Assembly (NCBI RefSeq): GCF_003432035.1
Contig: NZ_QOHO01000002.1
Span: forward strand, 1-64,000
Reading direction: 5' to 3'
Origin: Lacrimispora amygdalina
Lineage (GTDB): Bacteria > Bacillota > Clostridia > Lachnospirales > Lachnospiraceae
Length of the DNA stretch: 64,000 nt
Part shown: positions 13,705 through 20,521 of the stretch, piece by piece
Position numbering within the stretch: position 1 is the stretch's first letter
Layout: every line of letters begins with the position of its first letter
Notes under the pieces: model-generated
Seen by the model: the letters and a program-made list of their open reading frames with translations, nothing else
Told to the model about the DNA's origin: nothing
Database searches by the model: none
Translations under genes and position numbers: made by a program

Positions 13705-14652
13705 ATGAATATCGTACTATTAGAATCTCTTGGGATACCGGACAGTCTGCTTAATGAATATGCAAAGCCATTGACCGATGCAGGCCACAGTTTTACGGCT
13801 TTTGAAAAAAATACTGATGCGAAAGTTCAGATCGAAGAAGCTCAGGATGCTGATGTCATTATGATTGCCAATATGCCTCTAAGCGGAGAAGTAATAACTG
13901 CCTGCAGGAACTTAAAATTTATAGATGTTGCTTTTACAGGTGTTGATCATGTGAATCTGGAAGCTGCGAAAAATAATAATATTGCTGTCAGCAATGCAGC
14001 CGGTTACTCAACGGAAGCTGTGGCAGAGCTGACCTTAGGTCTTATGCTCTCACTTCTGCGTAATGTTATAAAGACTGATATCCGCTGCCGGGAAGGAAAG
14101 ACAAAAGAGGGTCTGGTAGGCTGCGAGCTGAAGGGTAAAACCGTGGGAATTGTGGGAGCCGGCGCAATCGGAACAAGGACCGCAGAACTTTGCAAAGCCT
14201 TTGGATGCCGCGTTCTCGGATACAAACGTACCATTACCGGAAACGAACCGGACTTCATGGAATTTGTATCTCTGGAAGAATTGCTTTCCAGCTCCGATAT
14301 CGTAAGTCTCCACTGTCCGTTAAATGAGGATTCCCGTCATTTGATCAACAGGAATACGATCGCCGGGATGAAACAGGGAGCTTATATCATTAATGCTGCA
14401 AGAGGTCCGGTAGTGGATTCAGAGGCCCTTGCCGAGGCTTTAAACAGCGGCTATCTGGCAGGTGCAGGAATCGATGTTTTTGAGAATGAACCGCCCATAG
14501 ATACTGCCCACCCCCTTTTAAACTGCAAGAATACCATCGTCACTCCTCATATCGCTTTTGCATCTGCAGAATCCATGAAGTTAAGAGCAGAAATCGTATT
14601 TGAGAATCTGAAAAAGTGGATGGAAGGCGACCAGATTAATAAAATTCTATAA
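13705..14652 (+). CDS. D-isomer specific 2-hydroxyacid dehydrogenase
   Basis: 315 residues, NAD-dependent, expected to reduce a 2-keto acid to the D-2-hydroxy acid or the reverse. The nucleotide-binding motif GIVGAGAIGT is near residue 150. The catalytic Arg (NAARGPVVD), Glu (FENEPP) and His (TPHIAFAS) are all present. Substrate not assignable. The ATG at 13705 has GGAG eight bases before it; an upstream ATG at 13687 does not. Followed by a terminator. Confidence 0.9.
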   Translation: MNIVLLESLGIPDSLLNEYAKPLTDAGHSFTAFEKNTDAKVQIEEAQDADVIMIANMPLSGEVITACRNLKFIDVAFTGVDHVNLEAAKNNNIAVSNAAGYSTEAVAELTLGLMLSLLRNVIKTDIRCREGKTKEGLVGCELKGKTVGIVGAGAIGTRTAELCKAFGCRVLGYKRTITGNEPDFMEFVSLEELLSSSDIVSLHCPLNEDSRHLINRNTIAGMKQGAYIINAARGPVVDSEALAEALNSGYLAGAGIDVFENEPPIDTAHPLLNCKNTIVTPHIAFASAESMKLRAEIVFENLKKWMEGDQINKIL

Positions 14653-14661
14653 GAATAAAAC

Positions 14662-14698
14662 AGAGGGGCATCATGCATTGGGATGCCTCTTATTCTTT
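14662..14698 (+). terminator. Terminator after the hydroxyacid dehydrogenase gene
   Basis: Stem of nine pairs with a two-base G bulge (14662-14672 with 14682-14690), then TATTCTTTC. Confidence 0.65.
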
Positions 14699-14772
14699 CA
14701 AAAATGGAAATTTCATGCAACAAAATCCACATAAAAGTCAGAAAAATATTTTTCTATTTGTGCAAATAATAC

Positions 14773-14800
14773 TTGTAATTCAGAATCTTCATGCTATAAT
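14773..14800 (+). promoter_or_regulatory. Promoter of the tRNA pair
   Basis: TTGTAA (14773-14778) and perfect TATAAT (14795-14800) spaced 16 bases, with the tRNA-Ala gene beginning nine bases after the -10. Confidence 0.75.
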
Positions 14801-14808
14801 TTAGACAA

Positions 14809-14881
14809 GGGGATATAGCTCAGCTGGGAGAGCGATGCGTTCGCAACGCATAGGCCACGAGTTCGAGTCTCGCTATCTCCA
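14809..14881 (+). tRNA. tRNA-Ala (anticodon CGC)
   Basis: A full cloverleaf reads through. The acceptor GGGGATA pairs with TATCTCC, including the G3-U70 pair that is the alanine identity element. The D arm is TAGCTCAGCTGGGAGAGC, the anticodon stem ATGCG/CGCAT has loop TTCGCAA (anticodon CGC), and the T arm has GTTCGAG. The CCA end is not encoded. It reads GCG. Confidence 0.95.
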
Positions 14882-14887
14882 TGAAAT

Positions 14888-14961
14888 GGAAGTATAGCTC
14901 AGCCGGGATGAGCGTTCGCCTCACACGCGAAAGGTCATGGGTTCGAGCCCCATTACTTCCA
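14888..14961 (+). tRNA. tRNA-Val (anticodon CAC)
   Basis: The acceptor GGAAGTA pairs with TACTTCC. The anticodon stem TTCGC/GCGAA has loop CTCACAC, so the anticodon is CAC (reads GTG). The T arm has GGTTCGAGCC. No encoded CCA. It lies six bases after tRNA-Ala and is presumably co-transcribed. Confidence 0.95.
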
Positions 14962-14980
14962 TTTTTCTATAAACAGCCAA

Positions 14981-15024
14981 AACACCGGAATCACTTGTAA
15001 ATACAGGGGATTCCGGTGTTTTTG
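14981..15024 (+). terminator. Terminator of the tRNA transcript
   Basis: Perfect 12-bp stem (14981-14992 with 15009-15020) followed by TTTTTG. Confidence 0.85.
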
Positions 15025-15105
15025 TACATTTTTAGGGATAGTGCCATGTTATGGATTTATATGATCAGCATATAATTATATGAAAAGTATTATTTGAGGG
15101 AATTC

Positions 15106-16389
15106 ATGATCATACACATTGTTCAATCCGGTGAAACCATCTATTCAATATCAGAATATTATAAGATCTCTGCTGACAGATTGATAATGGAAAACGGAAT
15201 TACAAACCCGGATAATTTAGCAATTGGCCAAACCATTGTGATTGTACAGCCTGAAACCACCTACAAAATCCGTCCTGGTGATTCTTTGGAGAGTATTGCT
15301 AAGCAGCATAATGTTTCACCTATGGAACTATTAAGAAACAACCCATTCCTCTCTGACCAGAAACAGCTCTATGCAGGTGAAACCATTGTAATACAATATC
15401 AAACAAGCAGAACTCAATCCATAATCACCAGCGGATATACTTTTTCTTATATAGACAGATCCGTTTTAATAAAAACACTTCCTTTTTTATCCTATCTGAC
15501 CATCTTCAATTACAAGGCTACAGCCGGGGGGGAAATAATTCCTGCTGCTGACGATGCGGAGCTTATTCAGCTGGCAGTATCTTATGGTGTTTCGCCGATT
15601 ATGTTTGTTTCGACCCTTACGGAAGACGGAATGGTTAACCGGGAAGCGAACTATTATATTTTAAATAATCCACCAATACAGGATATGCTTATTCAAAACT
15701 CTCTTCAAGTTATAAAAGAAAAAGGATATCATGGTATAAACATATATATTGATGACATTAATTATGACAACATTGACAACCTCTCACAGTATTTGAAGAG
15801 AGCATATCAGGTTTTTCATTCAGAAGGCTATACAATACTGATTACCATTACACCCGTTACAAATGTTAATAATACTGGCATGAGTTTTGATCAACTGGAC
15901 TATTCAAGATTATCTGAATATGTCGACGGAATTATATTTGCCTCATATGAATGGGCCAGGACTTTTGGATATCCAAGCTCAATTTTTCCCGTTAATTTAC
16001 TCATAGATTTATTAAAATTTGTGGTAACTATTATACCTCCTGAAAAAATATTTCTGGGGATCACCACAGCTGGCTATGACTGGACACTTCCTTATATTCC
16101 AGGAGCCTCAGGGGCTACCGTCTTAACCAATAATGACGCAGTTCAAATAGCTGCAGAAAACAATATTGCAATACAATATAATAAACCGGCACAATCTCCT
16201 TATTTCTACTATGTGGATAGTGATGAAGTTTTACATGTCATATGGTTTAAAGACGCAAGAAGCTTTGATGCCCGAACAATGCTGGTACCTGAATTCAATC
16301 TCCAGGGTCTGTCTTTTTGGACAATTATGAAATTCGATGCTCAGATGTGGTTTGTTATTAATACTCAATACTACATAAAAAAACTTTAG
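15106..16389 (+). CDS. Double-LysM, GH18-like spore cortex protein (SleL/YaaH type) with altered active site
   Basis: 427 residues. Two LysM peptidoglycan-binding modules cover about residues 3-48 (HIVQSGETIYSISEYYKIS) and 52-97 (YKIRPGDSLESIAKQHNVS). A GH18-fold domain of the SleL/YaaH kind fills the rest, ending with GLSFWTIMKFDAQMW. SleL proteins are N-acetylglucosaminidases acting on cortex fragments during germination. The catalytic DxDxE strand, usually like GVNIDFE, reads GYHGINIYIDDIN here, so the usual Asp is Tyr214 and the catalytic Glu is Asp216. Activity is therefore doubtful. No signal peptide, as in other spore-coat SleL proteins. The ATG at 15106 has TGAGGG before it; a TTG at 15094 is less likely. 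It stands immediately before the csp-like cluster. Confidence 0.82.
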   Translation: MIIHIVQSGETIYSISEYYKISADRLIMENGITNPDNLAIGQTIVIVQPETTYKIRPGDSLESIAKQHNVSPMELLRNNPFLSDQKQLYAGETIVIQYQTSRTQSIITSGYTFSYIDRSVLIKTLPFLSYLTIFNYKATAGGEIIPAADDAELIQLAVSYGVSPIMFVSTLTEDGMVNREANYYILNNPPIQDMLIQNSLQVIKEKGYHGINIYIDDINYDNIDNLSQYLKRAYQVFHSEGYTILITITPVTNVNNTGMSFDQLDYSRLSEYVDGIIFASYEWARTFGYPSSIFPVNLLIDLLKFVVTIIPPEKIFLGITTAGYDWTLPYIPGASGATVLTNNDAVQIAAENNIAIQYNKPAQSPYFYYVDSDEVLHVIWFKDARSFDARTMLVPEFNLQGLSFWTIMKFDAQMWFVINTQYYIKKL

Positions 16390-16395
16390 ATTAAA

Positions 16396-16533
16396 ATCAG
16401 ACGATCCCCTGTGCACTGCCCGGAACCGCTGCAGAACGCTGACCGGCACAGGCGCTGCTGCTTATGCCACCGGATCTTGGAATTCGGTATGTCAGATGTT
16501 AACGAACTTTTTCAGCGAGTTACCAATATCTGA
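16396..16533 (+). pseudogene. Remnant of the C-terminus of a Csp-like subtilase
   Basis: Read in shifting frames, this DNA gives IPCALPGTA, then LTGTGAAAYATG, then ILEFGMSDVNELFQRVTNI followed by TGA. These match, in order, the end of the two intact csp-like genes downstream (IPCAVPG, TGTGAAAAHTAG, and IWGYGRLDVNNLFRRLTNI). At least two frameshifts and a deletion of about 40 codons are present. The position of the catalytic serine is already glycine here. Only this tail is left; the body of the gene is missing. Confidence 0.8.
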
Positions 16534-16633
16534 CCATGTAACTTTTTTTCATTCCCGCTCCCTCTTTCATAATACAATTCCTGCTGCATAAACATATCAT
16601 ATATGCCCTCAGTATAAGATGGGAGGATCTCAG

Positions 16634-16804
16634 TTGAACAAAATACTGGACAATAATTACTACGACCTGATTATAGGTAATACAATCATATCAAATTATA
16701 ATACCGGGGATAATATACCCCCGGTAAGTGAGCCTTTCTCCCTGCTGCATATACCCGTAGTGTCCCCAGATCCCTGTAACTTAGGAACCCACCCAGCAAA
16801 ATAA
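16634..16804 (+). CDS. Stand-alone Csp prodomain-like fragment
   Basis: 56 residues, beginning at a TTG with GGGAGG seven bases upstream. The sequence NKILDNNYYDLIIGN, LLHIPVVSP and PCNLGTHP matches the first 55 residues of the two full-length csp-like proteins downstream. Those residues are the inhibitory/chaperone prodomain in Csp proteases. It stops with TAA where the others continue YHTFPTLYT. It is either a truncated gene copy or a separately made prodomain; the intact start region and frame leave the second open. It follows the decayed C-terminal remnant, so the two may be the ends of one deleted gene in exchanged order or of two genes. Confidence 0.6.
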   Translation: MNKILDNNYYDLIIGNTIISNYNTGDNIPPVSEPFSLLHIPVVSPDPCNLGTHPAK

Positions 16805-16830
16805 GGCAAAACAGACCGGAGGACTGTCTT

Positions 16831-18501
16831 TTGGAAAAGATTCTGGATAACGATTATTATGATCTGATAATTAATAATGTTTCGATTCCCACTTATGGTT
16901 CAGAAGATATAACCATGATTAATTTCAGGCATTCCCTGCTCCATATACCGGCAGCTGGTTCAACCCCCTGCCTGCTGGGAGAATATCCATATCACACCTT
17001 TCCGACTCTGTATACGCTAAACTCTACCATCAGCATAGAAAAGTCAGGGATTGGTCCTGTGCAGAGAAATCCTTTTCTGAATCTGACAGGCCGGGGAGTT
17101 ATTATTGGAATCATTGATACAGGAATTGATTACAGACACCAGGCGTTTCTTTACAATGATAATACTTCCAGGATTCTTTCCATCTGGGATCAATCCATCC
17201 AGAGCAATAATCCGCCAGCAGGCTTTACTTTCGGATCAGAATATAACAGAGAATCCATCAACATCGCTTTAAGATCGGATGATCCCTTATCTATCGTCCC
17301 TACCACGGATACAATCGGACACGGAACCTCTGTCGCAAGCATCATTGCCGGCAGGTACAATCCGGAAAACTCTTTCACGGGTATCGTACCGGAAGCAGAA
17401 CTGGTAGTTGTGAAATTAAAAGATCCAAAGCAGAATTTAAGAGATATCAATTTTGTACGGCCGGACGTTATCTGTTATCAGGAATCTGATATTATGCTGG
17501 GTGTCCGCTATCTGGAAACATATGCCCAGAATGCCAGCCGTCCGCTGGTGATCTGCATTGCTCTTGGAAGCAGCCAGGGCGGTCATGACGGAACAGACGC
17601 ATTAAGCGGCTATTTAAATTATCTGGCCATACTGCCTGGAATCGGAGTATCCGTTTCTGCAGGAAATGAAGGAAATAACCGCCGTCATTATTTTAACAAT
17701 ACAATGGCACCTCCATATTATAATAATTTTGAACTGAGGATCGGGGAAAACGATCCCATGTTTTTTATGGAAATATGGCCTTATGCTCTTGGCCGTGTAT
17801 CCATTGATGTTTCCACCCCAAACAGGGAATCCACACAGCCAATTTTCCCTACAATTGGTTCATGCAGAAGGTTTGATTTTATTTTTACTGACAGTACATT
17901 ATGGGTAAATAACTTCATATTTGAAGAGGAAACCGGAGATCAGCTGATTCTGCTCCGTTTTCAGGATCCCCTGCCAGGTGTTTGGAATATCCGGGTGGAA
18001 AGCATGGAAAATGAACCCATGTCATTTCATTCCTGGCTGCCTTCCGGTGACATCATCTCAAACGATACCTTTTTTTTAAACCCGAATCCTGACACTACCA
18101 TTACCTCTCCGGGGAATGCAACAAACCAGCTGACAGTCACTGCCTATAATCAGTTCAATGACAGCATCCTCATTGAATCCAGCAGAGGGTATACAAGAAA
18201 CGGATTAGTGAAACCGGACATTGCAGCTCCGGGATATCAGATTCCCTGTGCAGTACCCGGCAATCTCTATGGAACCATGACCGGAACCGGAGCGGCAGCC
18301 GCTCATACCGCCGGAGCAATCGCCATGATTCTGGAATGGGCAATTCGCAGAGGAAATTATACCTCTATGACCGGTAATGATGTGAACCGGCTTCTCATCC
18401 GGGGTGCAGCACGGGATAGCTCTATCATCTATCCAAACAATATCTGGGGATACGGCAGACTTGACGTAAATAACCTGTTCCGTAGACTGACCAACATCTG
18501 A
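16831..18501 (+). CDS. Csp-like germination subtilase with catalytic Ser to Gly (pseudoprotease)
   Basis: 556 residues from a TTG preceded by GGAGG. Prodomain about 1-75, then a subtilisin-like domain with a long insertion (about 300-430, the jelly-roll of Csp proteins). Catalytic Asp96 (IIDTGID), His164 (GHGTS) and oxyanion Asn279 (SAGNEGN) are present. The serine motif, normally GTSMAAP, reads TGTGAAAAH, so the nucleophile is Gly487. Csp proteins of Clostridia activate the cortex lytic enzyme SleC, and CspC of Clostridioides difficile is a non-cleaving bile-salt germinant sensor. Here a sensing or scaffold role is inferred rather than proteolysis. No signal peptide. No intact catalytic paralog is in the window. 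Confidence 0.85.
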   Translation: MEKILDNDYYDLIINNVSIPTYGSEDITMINFRHSLLHIPAAGSTPCLLGEYPYHTFPTLYTLNSTISIEKSGIGPVQRNPFLNLTGRGVIIGIIDTGIDYRHQAFLYNDNTSRILSIWDQSIQSNNPPAGFTFGSEYNRESINIALRSDDPLSIVPTTDTIGHGTSVASIIAGRYNPENSFTGIVPEAELVVVKLKDPKQNLRDINFVRPDVICYQESDIMLGVRYLETYAQNASRPLVICIALGSSQGGHDGTDALSGYLNYLAILPGIGVSVSAGNEGNNRRHYFNNTMAPPYYNNFELRIGENDPMFFMEIWPYALGRVSIDVSTPNRESTQPIFPTIGSCRRFDFIFTDSTLWVNNFIFEEETGDQLILLRFQDPLPGVWNIRVESMENEPMSFHSWLPSGDIISNDTFFLNPNPDTTITSPGNATNQLTVTAYNQFNDSILIESSRGYTRNGLVKPDIAAPGYQIPCAVPGNLYGTMTGTGAAAAHTAGAIAMILEWAIRRGNYTSMTGNDVNRLLIRGAARDSSIIYPNNIWGYGRLDVNNLFRRLTNI

Positions 18502-18535
18502 TCCGGCTCAAATGAAAGGGGATAGGAGGCTAATT

Positions 18536-20209
18536 TTGATTAAAATACTGGATAATAATTATTACGACTTAATTATTAACAATATCTCAGTCCCCTCTTA
18601 TGATACAGGAGACAATATCACTCCGCTGACAGAGCGAAGCTCACTGCTTCATATTCCCACAACAGGAACCGATCCCTGTGATTTAGGAACACATCCCTAT
18701 AACACGTTTCCCTCTCTCTATACCATCGAATCCACCATTAGTATAGAAAAATCAGGTATTGGTACAGTCCAGAGAAATCCGTTTTTAAACCTGACGGGTC
18801 AGGGCGTCTTAATGGGGTTCGTGGATACCGGTATCGATTACCAGCATACCGCTTTTAGAAATAACGACGGAACAACCCGTATTGTTTCCATATGGGATCA
18901 GACGATACAGACCGGAACAATCCCCCAAGGATTTACCTTCGGCAGTGAGTATAACAGCGAAGCCATTAATCTGGCTTTAGCCTCGGAAGATCCCCTTTCC
19001 TCTGTTCCGTCTGCAGATACCAATGGGCATGGAACCGCTATGGCAAGCATTGCAGCCGGGAGCTTCAGTTCCGATCAGACATTCTCCGGAGTGGTTCCCA
19101 ATTCACAGCTTGTCATTGTAAAGCTGAAAGATGCCAAAGAAAACTTAAAAAACGTTTTTTCAATACCTGCGGATACTTACTGCTTTCAGGAGTCTGATAT
19201 CCTGCTTGGCATCAGATATCTTGTTTTAACCGCACAGAAACTTAATCTTCCACTTGTGATTTGTATTGCCATAGGCACAAGCCAGGGAAGTCATGACGGT
19301 AAGGGAGTATTAAGCAGTTACTTAACTTATCTCGTACAGCTCCCGGGAATTGGTGTCTGCGTTTCAGCGGGAAATGAAGGAAATAAGCAGAGGCACTATT
19401 TTAACAGCACTACAGTTGTACCCTTTTACAATGATTTCGAACTGAGAATCGGGGAAAATGACAAAGAATTCTGGATGGAAATCTGGCCTTATGCACCAGA
19501 ACGGATTTCCATTGATATTTCAACTCCAAACAGAGAATCAACCCAGCGTATTTATCCTGCAATCGCAGACTGCCGGAAATTCAACTTTATCTTTACGCAA
19601 AGTATTGTATGGGTAAACAATATCATTTTTGAAGAAGAAACAGGTGATCAGCTTATATTAATCCGGTTTCAGAATCCCCAGCCCGGAGTGTGGTACTTAC
19701 GTGCCCAAAGCCTGGAAAATGAGGCATTCTTCTTTCACTGCTGGCTCCCCAACGGAACGATCATTTCAGATAATACATTTTTTCTGATCCCCAATCCGGA
19801 TACTACTATCACGTCTCCGGGTAATGGAGCCTATCAGCTGACAGTCACGGCCTATAATCAGTTTACCGACGGTATCCTTCCTGAATCCAGCAGAGGTTAT
19901 ACCAGAAACGGACTGGTTAAGCCTGATATAGCAGCTCCCGGCTACCAGATTCCATGTGCAGTTCCAGGCAATCAGTACACAACTGCAACAGGCACCGGAG
20001 CTGCCAGCGCCCACGCAGCCGGAATTATCGCCATGGTGTTTGAATGGGGGATTTCAAGAGGAAATTATACTACTCTGACCGGATATAATGTCAATCGTCT
20101 GATCATAAGAGGAGCCATGAGAAACCCCTCTGAAGTTTACCCCAATAATATCTGGGGCTATGGACGCATCAATGTTAACAACTTATTTGAACGGCTCACC
20201 AATATCTGA
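18536..20209 (+). CDS. Second Csp-like subtilase with catalytic Ser to Gly (pseudoprotease)
   Basis: 557 residues, tandem paralog of the preceding gene, with very similar sequence along the whole length (IEKSGIG, FGSEYN, ESSRGYTRNGLVKPDIAAPG shared). It also starts at a TTG after AGGAGG. Asp97 (FVDTGID), His165 (GHGTA) and Asn280 are kept, while the serine position is Gly488 (TGTGAASAH). The prodomain keeps the ILDNNYYDLIIN segment. It begins 34 bases after the first copy, so both are probably on one transcript ended by the terminator at 20224. As with its neighbour, a germinant-sensing or SleC-pathway regulatory role is inferred from the family. Confidence 0.85.
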   Translation: MIKILDNNYYDLIINNISVPSYDTGDNITPLTERSSLLHIPTTGTDPCDLGTHPYNTFPSLYTIESTISIEKSGIGTVQRNPFLNLTGQGVLMGFVDTGIDYQHTAFRNNDGTTRIVSIWDQTIQTGTIPQGFTFGSEYNSEAINLALASEDPLSSVPSADTNGHGTAMASIAAGSFSSDQTFSGVVPNSQLVIVKLKDAKENLKNVFSIPADTYCFQESDILLGIRYLVLTAQKLNLPLVICIAIGTSQGSHDGKGVLSSYLTYLVQLPGIGVCVSAGNEGNKQRHYFNSTTVVPFYNDFELRIGENDKEFWMEIWPYAPERISIDISTPNRESTQRIYPAIADCRKFNFIFTQSIVWVNNIIFEEETGDQLILIRFQNPQPGVWYLRAQSLENEAFFFHCWLPNGTIISDNTFFLIPNPDTTITSPGNGAYQLTVTAYNQFTDGILPESSRGYTRNGLVKPDIAAPGYQIPCAVPGNQYTTATGTGAASAHAAGIIAMVFEWGISRGNYTTLTGYNVNRLIIRGAMRNPSEVYPNNIWGYGRINVNNLFERLTNI

Positions 20210-20223
20210 CCTTACTTATTGCG

Positions 20224-20273
20224 ACAGGCACCGGACTTCCTGATATAGGGATAATCCGGTGCCTGTTATTTTT
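20224..20273 (+). terminator. Terminator of the csp-like cluster
   Basis: Perfect 11-bp stem (20224-20234 with 20256-20266), long loop, then TTATTTTTG. It begins 15 bases after the last csp-like stop codon. Confidence 0.8.
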
Positions 20274-20283
20274 GACCGCAGTT

Positions 20284-20427
20284 TCAGTAAAAAACAGAAA
20301 TTCCATATTTAAATTTTCTGTAAAATTTCCAGACGATCACTGCCGGGAAACTAAAAAACAGATAAAGCGTAGTCAGTCCACCAATGACTGCATAAACTGC
20401 CATAAGCAAAACTATAATGAACCCCAT
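20284..20427 (-). CDS. 47-residue membrane protein
   Basis: A 48-codon frame with GGAGG eight bases before its ATG. It begins MGFIIVLLMAVYAVIGGLTT and has one long hydrophobic stretch at about residues 3-33, then a basic tail (WKFYRKFKYG). It lies about 95 bases downstream of the chemoreceptor gene on the same strand and may be co-transcribed. The strong binding site and membrane-protein composition argue for expression. Family not recognised. Confidence 0.65.
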   Translation of the reverse strand: MGFIIVLLMAVYAVIGGLTTLYLFFSFPAVIVWKFYRKFKYGISVFY

Positions 20428-20521
20428 AAATCATCCCTCCTTCTACCCTTCTATTTTAGTAATATCTTCCATAAAAAGAAAGAGATTGGGAGGAATCTTA
20501 ACGCTATTTTAATGAAATCGA

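Follow-up and report, generated by a model that had tools for sequence, protein, structure and literature searches.

GerA-type germinant receptors sit in the membrane and are assembled from A, B, and C subunits. The closest described counterparts of the proteins reported here are CspA and CspC of Clostridioides difficile, two pseudoproteases with the S8 subtilase fold, a prodomain, and a jelly roll. CspC has Gly at the site of the catalytic Ser (G485), and the two are encoded in the cspBA-cspC operon, which is sigma-E dependent (PMC3789822). CspB, CspA, and CspC of C. perfringens belong to the same family and were published as catalytically intact, and the Csps of Clostridiaceae and Lachnospiraceae have been stated or predicted to be catalytically active (PMC6636752, 2019; PMC12880746, 2026). 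Two C. difficile papers describe Csp pseudoproteases as confined to Peptostreptococcaceae and the triads of Lachnospiraceae Csps as intact. A search of published articles, mostly open-access ones, found no report of Csp pseudoproteases beyond Peptostreptococcaceae. Here, we analyzed a 64,000-nucleotide stretch of the Lacrimispora amygdalina genome (contig NZ_QOHO01000002.1, positions 1 to 64,000), called the window, in which two adjacent genes on the forward strand encode Csp pseudoproteases a (16831..18501) and b (18536..20209). With a probability of roughly 0.58, we read them as part of an extensive family of Csp pseudoproteases that arose independently in Lacrimispora and related Lachnospiraceae and whose members regulate or sense germination as soluble proteins, by way of CspB and SleC. 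Genomes, contigs, and loci are given by handles starting with G, C, and L, respectively, where they are needed.

The pseudo-active site of the window pair

The initial annotation stated that both full-length subtilases keep the catalytic Asp and His and the oxyanion Asn but have Gly in place of Ser, and alignment confirmed this. In protein a (556 amino acids, TTG start), D96, H164, and N279 occupy the Asp, His, and oxyanion Asn positions and G487 occupies the Ser position. Protein b (557 amino acids), which is 69% identical to protein a, aligns likewise, with Gly at the Ser position. The motif reads TGTGAAAAH or TGTGAASAH in the pair compared to TGTSxAAAH in Ser-type relatives, and a helix in the model of protein a starts at residue 486, beside G487. 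The window proteins differ from the C. perfringens Csps in lacking the Ser. A catalytic serine shifted by a few residues, which the annotation had named as a finding that would speak against it, was ruled out by the motif, the alignment, and the model.

Both proteins have a Pfam S8 match. The AlphaFold model of protein a, made with 64 rows hand-picked out of 129 (alignment A2), has a mean predicted local distance difference test score (pLDDT) of 91.1 and a predicted template modeling score of 0.93, with a low-confidence loop at residues 71-82. Its best PDB match by Foldseek is C. difficile CspC (6mw4, template modeling (TM) scores 0.85/0.86), and CspA, the CspC-CspA complex, and CspB were also matched. 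The matches to CspC, CspA, and CspB cover almost the entire chain (TM 0.75-0.86 by query), while the first non-Csp match, a subtilase, reaches a TM of only 0.53. The closest solved sequences are CspA and CspC of C. difficile and CspB of C. difficile and C. perfringens. The expectation of a Csp-family protein with CspC as its best fold match was therefore borne out (model pLDDT 91). By alignment and model, both window proteins are assigned to the Csp-family subtilases, with a prodomain-like N-terminus and a jelly-roll insertion; the model covers protein a, and protein b follows through its 69% identity.

The likeness to CspC that had been proposed held for the fold and for the Gly at the Ser site, but not further. 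CspC has Thr170 at the His position (PMC6636752; both CspC rows of the tree described below), and the CspA half of G593 has Gln there, whereas the window family keeps His. The window proteins score 287.0 and 282.2 bits with the NCBIfam model CspC_non_triad, which has a cut-off of 675, and 293.1 and 291.7 bits with the CspA half of the CspBA model, which has a cut-off of 1250. Orthology to CspC was rejected due to the score far under the CspC cut-off and the separate position in the tree.

To describe the family, 215 of 231 matches were kept, with identical last 400 residues counted once; 214 of these were under 720 amino acids, and the 1175-amino-acid fusion L133 was left out of the family alignments. 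The residue at the Ser position is Gly in 121 of the 214 rows and Ser in 83; of the remaining rows, 7 have Cys, 1 has Ala, and 2 lack this position. Asp and His are kept in all 214. Among the Gly rows, D96 and H164 are invariant (121/121), and N279 is kept in 118 and replaced by Asp in 3 (L024, which is C130 of L. amygdalina, L069, and L192). The Gly codons are 48 GGA, 26 GGG, 24 GGT, and 23 GGC. Since all four are used, it seems to be the residue, Gly itself, that is maintained in the protein. Group-specific positions formed no clear hot spot (4/84 in the prodomain, 13/128 in the jelly roll, and 9/206 and 9/138 elsewhere; groups of 2-20 rows).

The conservation of D96 and H164 in every Gly row, and of N279 in nearly all of them, could mean that these proteins are still enzymes. 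The Asp-His pair and the oxyanion Asn would then support a non-standard reaction, or the proteins would be conditional proteases with a nucleophile from another residue or a cofactor. However, the Ser position holds Gly, no conserved Ser or Cys lies near it in the 121 Gly rows, and 24 of them have Ser, Cys, or Ala instead of Thr486. CspC, with the same Gly, is also termed a pseudoprotease (PMC6636752). We regard an enzymatic role as quite improbable.

The pair is the surviving half of a tandem array

Three relatives (G012, G021, and G003) have four tandem copies, 57-71% identical to one another, at the place of the window's two genes; neighbors in this comparison were judged by eye from translation starts. 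The decayed stretch upstream of gene a had been noted as one remnant with the same Ser-to-Gly change. The change is there, but the remnant is made of two pieces of two genes. The first, at 16403..16473 (+), is a C-terminal piece of copy 1 (82.7% by blastn to copy 1 of L170 in G003 and 77.3% to L169) and reads TGTGAAAYATG, with Gly at the Ser site. The second, at 16634..16804 (+), is an N-terminal piece of copy 2, with a TTG start at 16634 and 56 codons plus a stop (84.7% to copy 2 of L170 over 16634-16790). Since the pieces match the C-terminal part of copy 1 and the N-terminal part of copy 2, most of both copies has been lost. The window pair, copies 3 and 4, is the surviving half of a four-gene array. 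Where copy 1 is whole, it has Gly at the Ser site in three of three genomes; in copy 2, the residue there is Gly in two genomes but Ala in another. The open reading frame of gene b spans 18512-20209. Its likely start is the TTG at 18536, which is preceded by AGGAGG at 18524-18529 and begins 34 bp past the stop of gene a, and the two genes perhaps share one transcript.

Copies 1 and 2, remnants in the window, also appear broken by reading frame in several relatives (e.g. G013, G024, and G016). This raises the question of whether the whole array consists of functionless, decaying duplicates. The ratio of nonsynonymous to synonymous substitution rates (dN/dS) was 0.047-0.068 for gene a in 10 of 13 comparisons and 0.044-0.071 for gene b in 9 of 11, with the other three and two saturated, respectively. 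Values of about 0.05 indicate that the pair is under strong purifying selection, and Csp matches were found in 25 of 25 genus genomes. Neutral decay is refuted for a and b, and as an account of the family it has almost no probability left.

Loss of the serine and a possible return of the nucleophile

A tree was built with the catalytic columns removed from 103 rows, namely 95 hand-picked from the 214 and 8 from Peptostreptococcaceae or family f39. This and our other trees are quick searches without bootstrap. Fifty-eight Lachnospiraceae rows form one clade with a Shimodaira-Hasegawa-like approximate likelihood ratio support of 100, and most Gly proteins fall within this clade. It contains Lacrimispora, Kineothrix alysoides, Muricomes intestini, Faecalicatena contorta, [Clostridium] fimetarium, and other relatives, and its states at the Ser site are 50 Gly, 1 Ala, 4 Ser, and 3 Cys. 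Peptostreptococcaceae CspA and CspC branch apart from this clade, although the tool warns of long branches there. Because of this placement, the retained His, and the low score with the CspC model, the loss of Ser in the Gly clade looks independent of that in C. difficile CspC. The idea that Ser was lost before the duplication is supported by the tree on a larger scale than the window array.

Tandem pairs made up of a Ser-type and then a Gly-type gene occur as well (C144 of L. amygdalina, L088, L074, and L077), and the sisters of the Gly-type member in L083, L085, and L075 have Ser; in G246, the members of such a pair are 1.5 kb apart. The 103-row tree requires a switch from Ser/Cys to Gly/Ala or back at least six times.

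The seven Ser/Cys rows of the clade make up one nested lineage, with Gly rows all around. It is named C25b after the L. amygdalina gene (L010:1237-2913, +; G000:C25:7147-8823), a Ser-type Csp that is divergently oriented to the Gly-type gene C25a and whose relatives have Ser, Cys, or Gly at this site. An ancestral Ser kept in C25b was rejected: in a 36-row set, holding the other 23 clade rows together was 116.7 log units worse (approximately unbiased test, p = 1.4e-145), with the constraint group having been defined after the first tree was inspected. The nearest Gly relatives use GGT, GGC, or GGA, the Ser rows from genomes other than L. amygdalina AGT or AGC, and the Cys rows TGT or TGC. On sequence grounds, C25b is best read as a lineage that regained a nucleophile, which is the simplest reading; the alternative is parallel loss of Ser in every surrounding branch. 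Such a lineage would show that a pseudoenzyme can recover its nucleophile in nature.

The C25b orthologs L188, L190, L061 (SVDU01000017.1), L065, and L059 have a natural Cys at the nucleophile position together with Ala at the place of subtilisin Pro225. A Cys nucleophile and Pro225Ala are the two changes that define the engineered subtiligase, a thiolsubtilisin. In contrast to subtiligase, the C25b proteins are natural, and Ala at the Pro225 place is common in these Csps; these orthologs are also distinct from the window genes. Cys at the Ser site was seen outside the Gly clade as well, in L100 and L107, one of them in [Ruminococcus] torques.

Csp paralogs in L. amygdalina and its relatives

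An S8 family search of the L. amygdalina genome gave 27 matches in 15 genes. C24 and C102 are ordinary subtilases and were left out, and the remaining 13 are Csp-like. Eight have Gly (C88a, C88b, C131, C25a, C173, C135, C130, and C144b), four have Ser (C140, C144a, C90, and C25b), and C57 ends at a contig end before the Ser position and is outside this count. The jelly-roll region is present in all complete paralogs (alignment, by eye). The annotation had stated that the window contains no catalytically intact paralog, which is true of the window, but four Ser-type paralogs are present elsewhere in the genome. Its proposal that the tandem pair forms a module without an active partner was not supported, as the pair belongs to a dispersed family of 13 and the genome has a CspB-type gene plus three other Ser-type Csps.

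The Csp/S8 search matched all 25 genomes of the genus, with 12-20 matches each, some of which are ordinary subtilases or parts, and 7 in one 67%-complete genome. All Csp matches were read in two near-complete genomes: G017 has 9 Gly and 1 Ser Csp, and G020 has 14 Gly and 1 Ser Csp plus one remnant. In both, the Ser-type Csp is of the CspB type. The three genomes read thus have 8, 9, and 14 Gly paralogs, compared to two pseudoproteases in C. difficile, and their genes are dispersed, in tandem, or divergent, with no cspBA-cspC-like operon or fusion in the stretches read. Outside the genus, G252 has 3 Gly and 1 Ser among 4 matches, G053 has 3 Gly and 2 Ser among 5 (its Gly row L215 shares the last 400 residues with Muricomes L068), and G246 has 1 Gly and 7 Ser among 8. 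In a sample of 298 genomes of the family, 202 have a match at 1e-50, usually two per genome among the matches listed (at most four scored in each).

Judged from sequence, these data contradict the view that the Csps of Lachnospiraceae are catalytically active. The confinement of Csp pseudoproteases to Peptostreptococcaceae is likewise contradicted by this genus, where as many as 14 Gly-type Csps accompany a lone Ser-type one, which indicates that Ser was lost repeatedly in the Csp family. The question of whether Csp pseudoproteases are truly germinant receptors can now be put to another lineage, separate from that of C. difficile.

CspB-type and SleC-like genes

A genome search for an intact CspB and for sleC, which the annotation had proposed, found both a CspB-type gene (C140) and a SleC-like gene (on C93). 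Against the CspB half of the CspBA model, C140 scores 395 bits, and its best match is C. perfringens CspB (4i0w, 335 bits). It adjoins a SpoIID-domain gene, and by eye a dnaG-like gene lies in the vicinity. A CspB-type gene is present in L. amygdalina, G017, and G020. The C93 gene encodes 420 amino acids with a peptidoglycan-binding domain and a weak SpoIID/LytB match, which we take to be the make-up of SleC. By eye, its N-terminus is similar to that of genes adjacent to csp fusions in two further genomes.

The SleC-like gene was matched in 25 of 25 genus genomes, as two pieces in G016 and G020. In G020 (C2, about 342.4-391 kb), the pieces lie on L242:951-2874 and L243:19046-19957. The interval between them contains phage-like genes, a LysM-GH18-like gene, and, adjacent to the C-terminal piece, a recombinase-like gene (by eye). 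The insert looks like a prophage inside sleC. The skin element in sigK is removed during sporulation, and the G020 insert may perhaps be excised in sporulation in the same way.

Another conceivable spore role, outside germinant sensing, is one in which the Gly-type Csps act, for example, as inhibitors that occupy the active site of CspB-type proteases in dormancy. After cleavage, the CspB prodomain remains bound and obstructs the active site (PMC6636752), which gives a precedent in this family for control by occlusion. Inhibition leaves the number and divergence of the paralogs unexplained, however, and we consider it improbable.

Sigma-E-like promoters

Of 116 csp genes, 74 are preceded by the pattern T.ATA..-N12-14-CATANNNW, which fits the Bacillus sigma-E consensus; the spacer is 13 in 66 of them, and the -10 box lies 44-52 bp before the start in 67. 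The mean of 100 shuffles was 1.8 (maximum 5), and other open reading frames of the same loci gave 2/171; the pattern was picked after several csp upstream sequences had been inspected, and thus the open reading frame background is the fairer control. The count required a recognized start motif, which limited it to 116 of the 214 rows and placed C144a, C144b, C90, and C140 outside, and the rows are related, with many orthologs, and so are not independent. By residue, the pattern precedes 62/103 Gly genes and 10/11 Ser/Cys genes. A sigma-K-like pattern was found in 0/113 upstream regions (shuffle mean 1.6).

In the window, no sigma-E-like pattern was found directly before a or b. The sole match in 14601-20500 is TCATAAT-N13-CATAAACA at 16567..16594 (+), ahead of the copy 2 remnant. 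The remnant and genes a and b could all be transcribed from this candidate promoter.

A second box, often CATAAGATATATCATATG and nearly palindromic, was seen downstream of the first CATA box at L004 (C25a), L010 (C25b), and other csp genes. It is possibly an operator.

Ger receptors in the genus and family

No convincing GerAB was found in the 25 genus genomes. The best PF03845 score was 27.4 bits, in frames of 448-468 residues; nine genomes have a match at 0.001, and four pass the cut-off of 23.4, which E. coli and Haloferax also pass. Elsewhere in the family, GerAB scores reach 157 bits. High-scoring Csps did not track GerAB absence in other genera. The neighbors of the genus's lone GerA-type gene seem unrelated in the three stretches compared (by eye), and the gene scores 178 of 850 bits with an NCBIfam model, which leaves more than one assignment possible. 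In Paraclostridium bifermentans, which lacks Ger receptors, SpoVAF was judged the nearest relative of an annotated gerA, and germination showed no apparent effect of bile acids (PMC6199464). Csp genes therefore do not imply bile acids as germinants.

Proposed soluble germinant sensing and its alternatives

The link to germination that the annotation proposed is probable, given the sigma-E-like promoter, the SleC-like and CspB-type genes in the genome, and the lack of a convincing GerAB. The SleC-like and CspB-type genes and, as a sequence pattern, the promoter have counterparts in C. difficile. If a and b are germination regulators, the Gly-type Csps would be produced in the mother cell during sporulation under sigma-E and located near the cortex or coat, with no autoprocessing. 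They would work as C. difficile CspA and CspC do, as soluble regulators or receptors, probably in homo- or heterodimers. A germinant signal would lead to release of the active Csp and processing of pro-SleC, and germination would proceed from the outside in. The many paralogs would allow one spore to answer several signals or combinations of signals, as a soluble counterpart of multiple GerA receptors. The possible parallel with GerA-type receptors is functional, in that each spore would have many paralogous sensors; here, these would be subtilase-like proteins in a genus with no convincing GerAB. This bears on how spores without a recognizable GerAB sense their surroundings.

A stronger version can be proposed only tentatively, as we give it somewhat less than even odds. 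It holds that Lacrimispora and related Lachnospiraceae, separately from C. difficile, evolved soluble Csp pseudoproteases, about 8 to 14 in each genome, as their main germinant-sensing apparatus to replace GerA-type receptors, each tuned to a different signal and feeding one or a few active Csps, and that one lineage was re-armed with Ser and then Cys.

Dead Csps could also be structural or chaperone-like, scaffolding or stabilizing an active Csp and aiding coat assembly without any sensing. In C. difficile, stable incorporation of CspC into spores depends on CspA (PMC12880746), and the fold, the selection, and the promoter fit this equally well. A scaffold, though, does not explain why 8 to 14 diverged Gly paralogs exist beside one to four Ser-type Csps, nor why the Asp, His, and Gly of the pseudo-active site are invariant. 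We think it unlikely, but it deserves more weight than the inhibitor or enzyme accounts.

Several observations weigh against soluble germination regulators. G020, the genome richest in Gly Csps (14), has its SleC-like gene in two pieces 47 kb apart. The sigma-E-like pattern is missing from 42 of the 116 upstream regions, and in L. amygdalina only four of the eight tested genes have it (C131, C25a, C173, and C25b, but not C88a, C88b, C130, or C135). A sigma-G-like pattern was found in 11/113 regions compared to a shuffle mean of 3.4. Most paralog neighborhoods show no conserved germination operon by eye, and the retention of Asp and His, unlike in CspC, leaves room for another chemistry. Lack of GerAB is widespread in the family, where only 67 of 298 genomes pass a loose cut-off. 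One GerA-type gene is present in every genus genome (in two pieces in G024), and it may be SpoVAF or a receptor subunit. Lastly, G049 (141 bits) and G137 (68 bits) have a strong GerAB together with best Csps that score like Gly-clade members, as judged by score and not by the residue at the Ser site. The Csp family is therefore not a simple replacement of Ger receptors. Our confidence in the germination-regulator reading was slightly lowered because of the split sleC in G020 and because only half of the tested L. amygdalina genes have the promoter pattern.

Neighboring genes and related loci

Directly upstream of the array, a gene at 15094..16389 (+) encodes a LysM-GH18 protein (Pfam LysM, 1.7e-22; Glyco_hydro_18, 3e-16), presumably with an architecture like that of the spore hydrolases SleL/YaaH. 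A LysM-GH18 gene is directly upstream of the array in G003 (L170) too, by translation start. Cell-wall hydrolase genes adjoin two Csp loci. At C131, an Amidase_3 gene (L032:5275-6153, +) is directly upstream of the Csp and is CwlD-like by a weak NCBIfam match. G018 has a similar-sized gene at that place (L175:2987-3859, +).

CspBA-like fused reading frames, a fusion described as specific to Peptostreptococcaceae, were seen in L231-L237, L240, and L241 (families f39 and f2) and in L133, outside the family of the two CspBA matches above the cut-off. A SleC-like gene stands beside the fusion in two of those genomes (by eye). In the Peptostreptococcaceae-like L239 (G658), two cspC-like genes lie in a row, and the CspA half has Ser in the motif.

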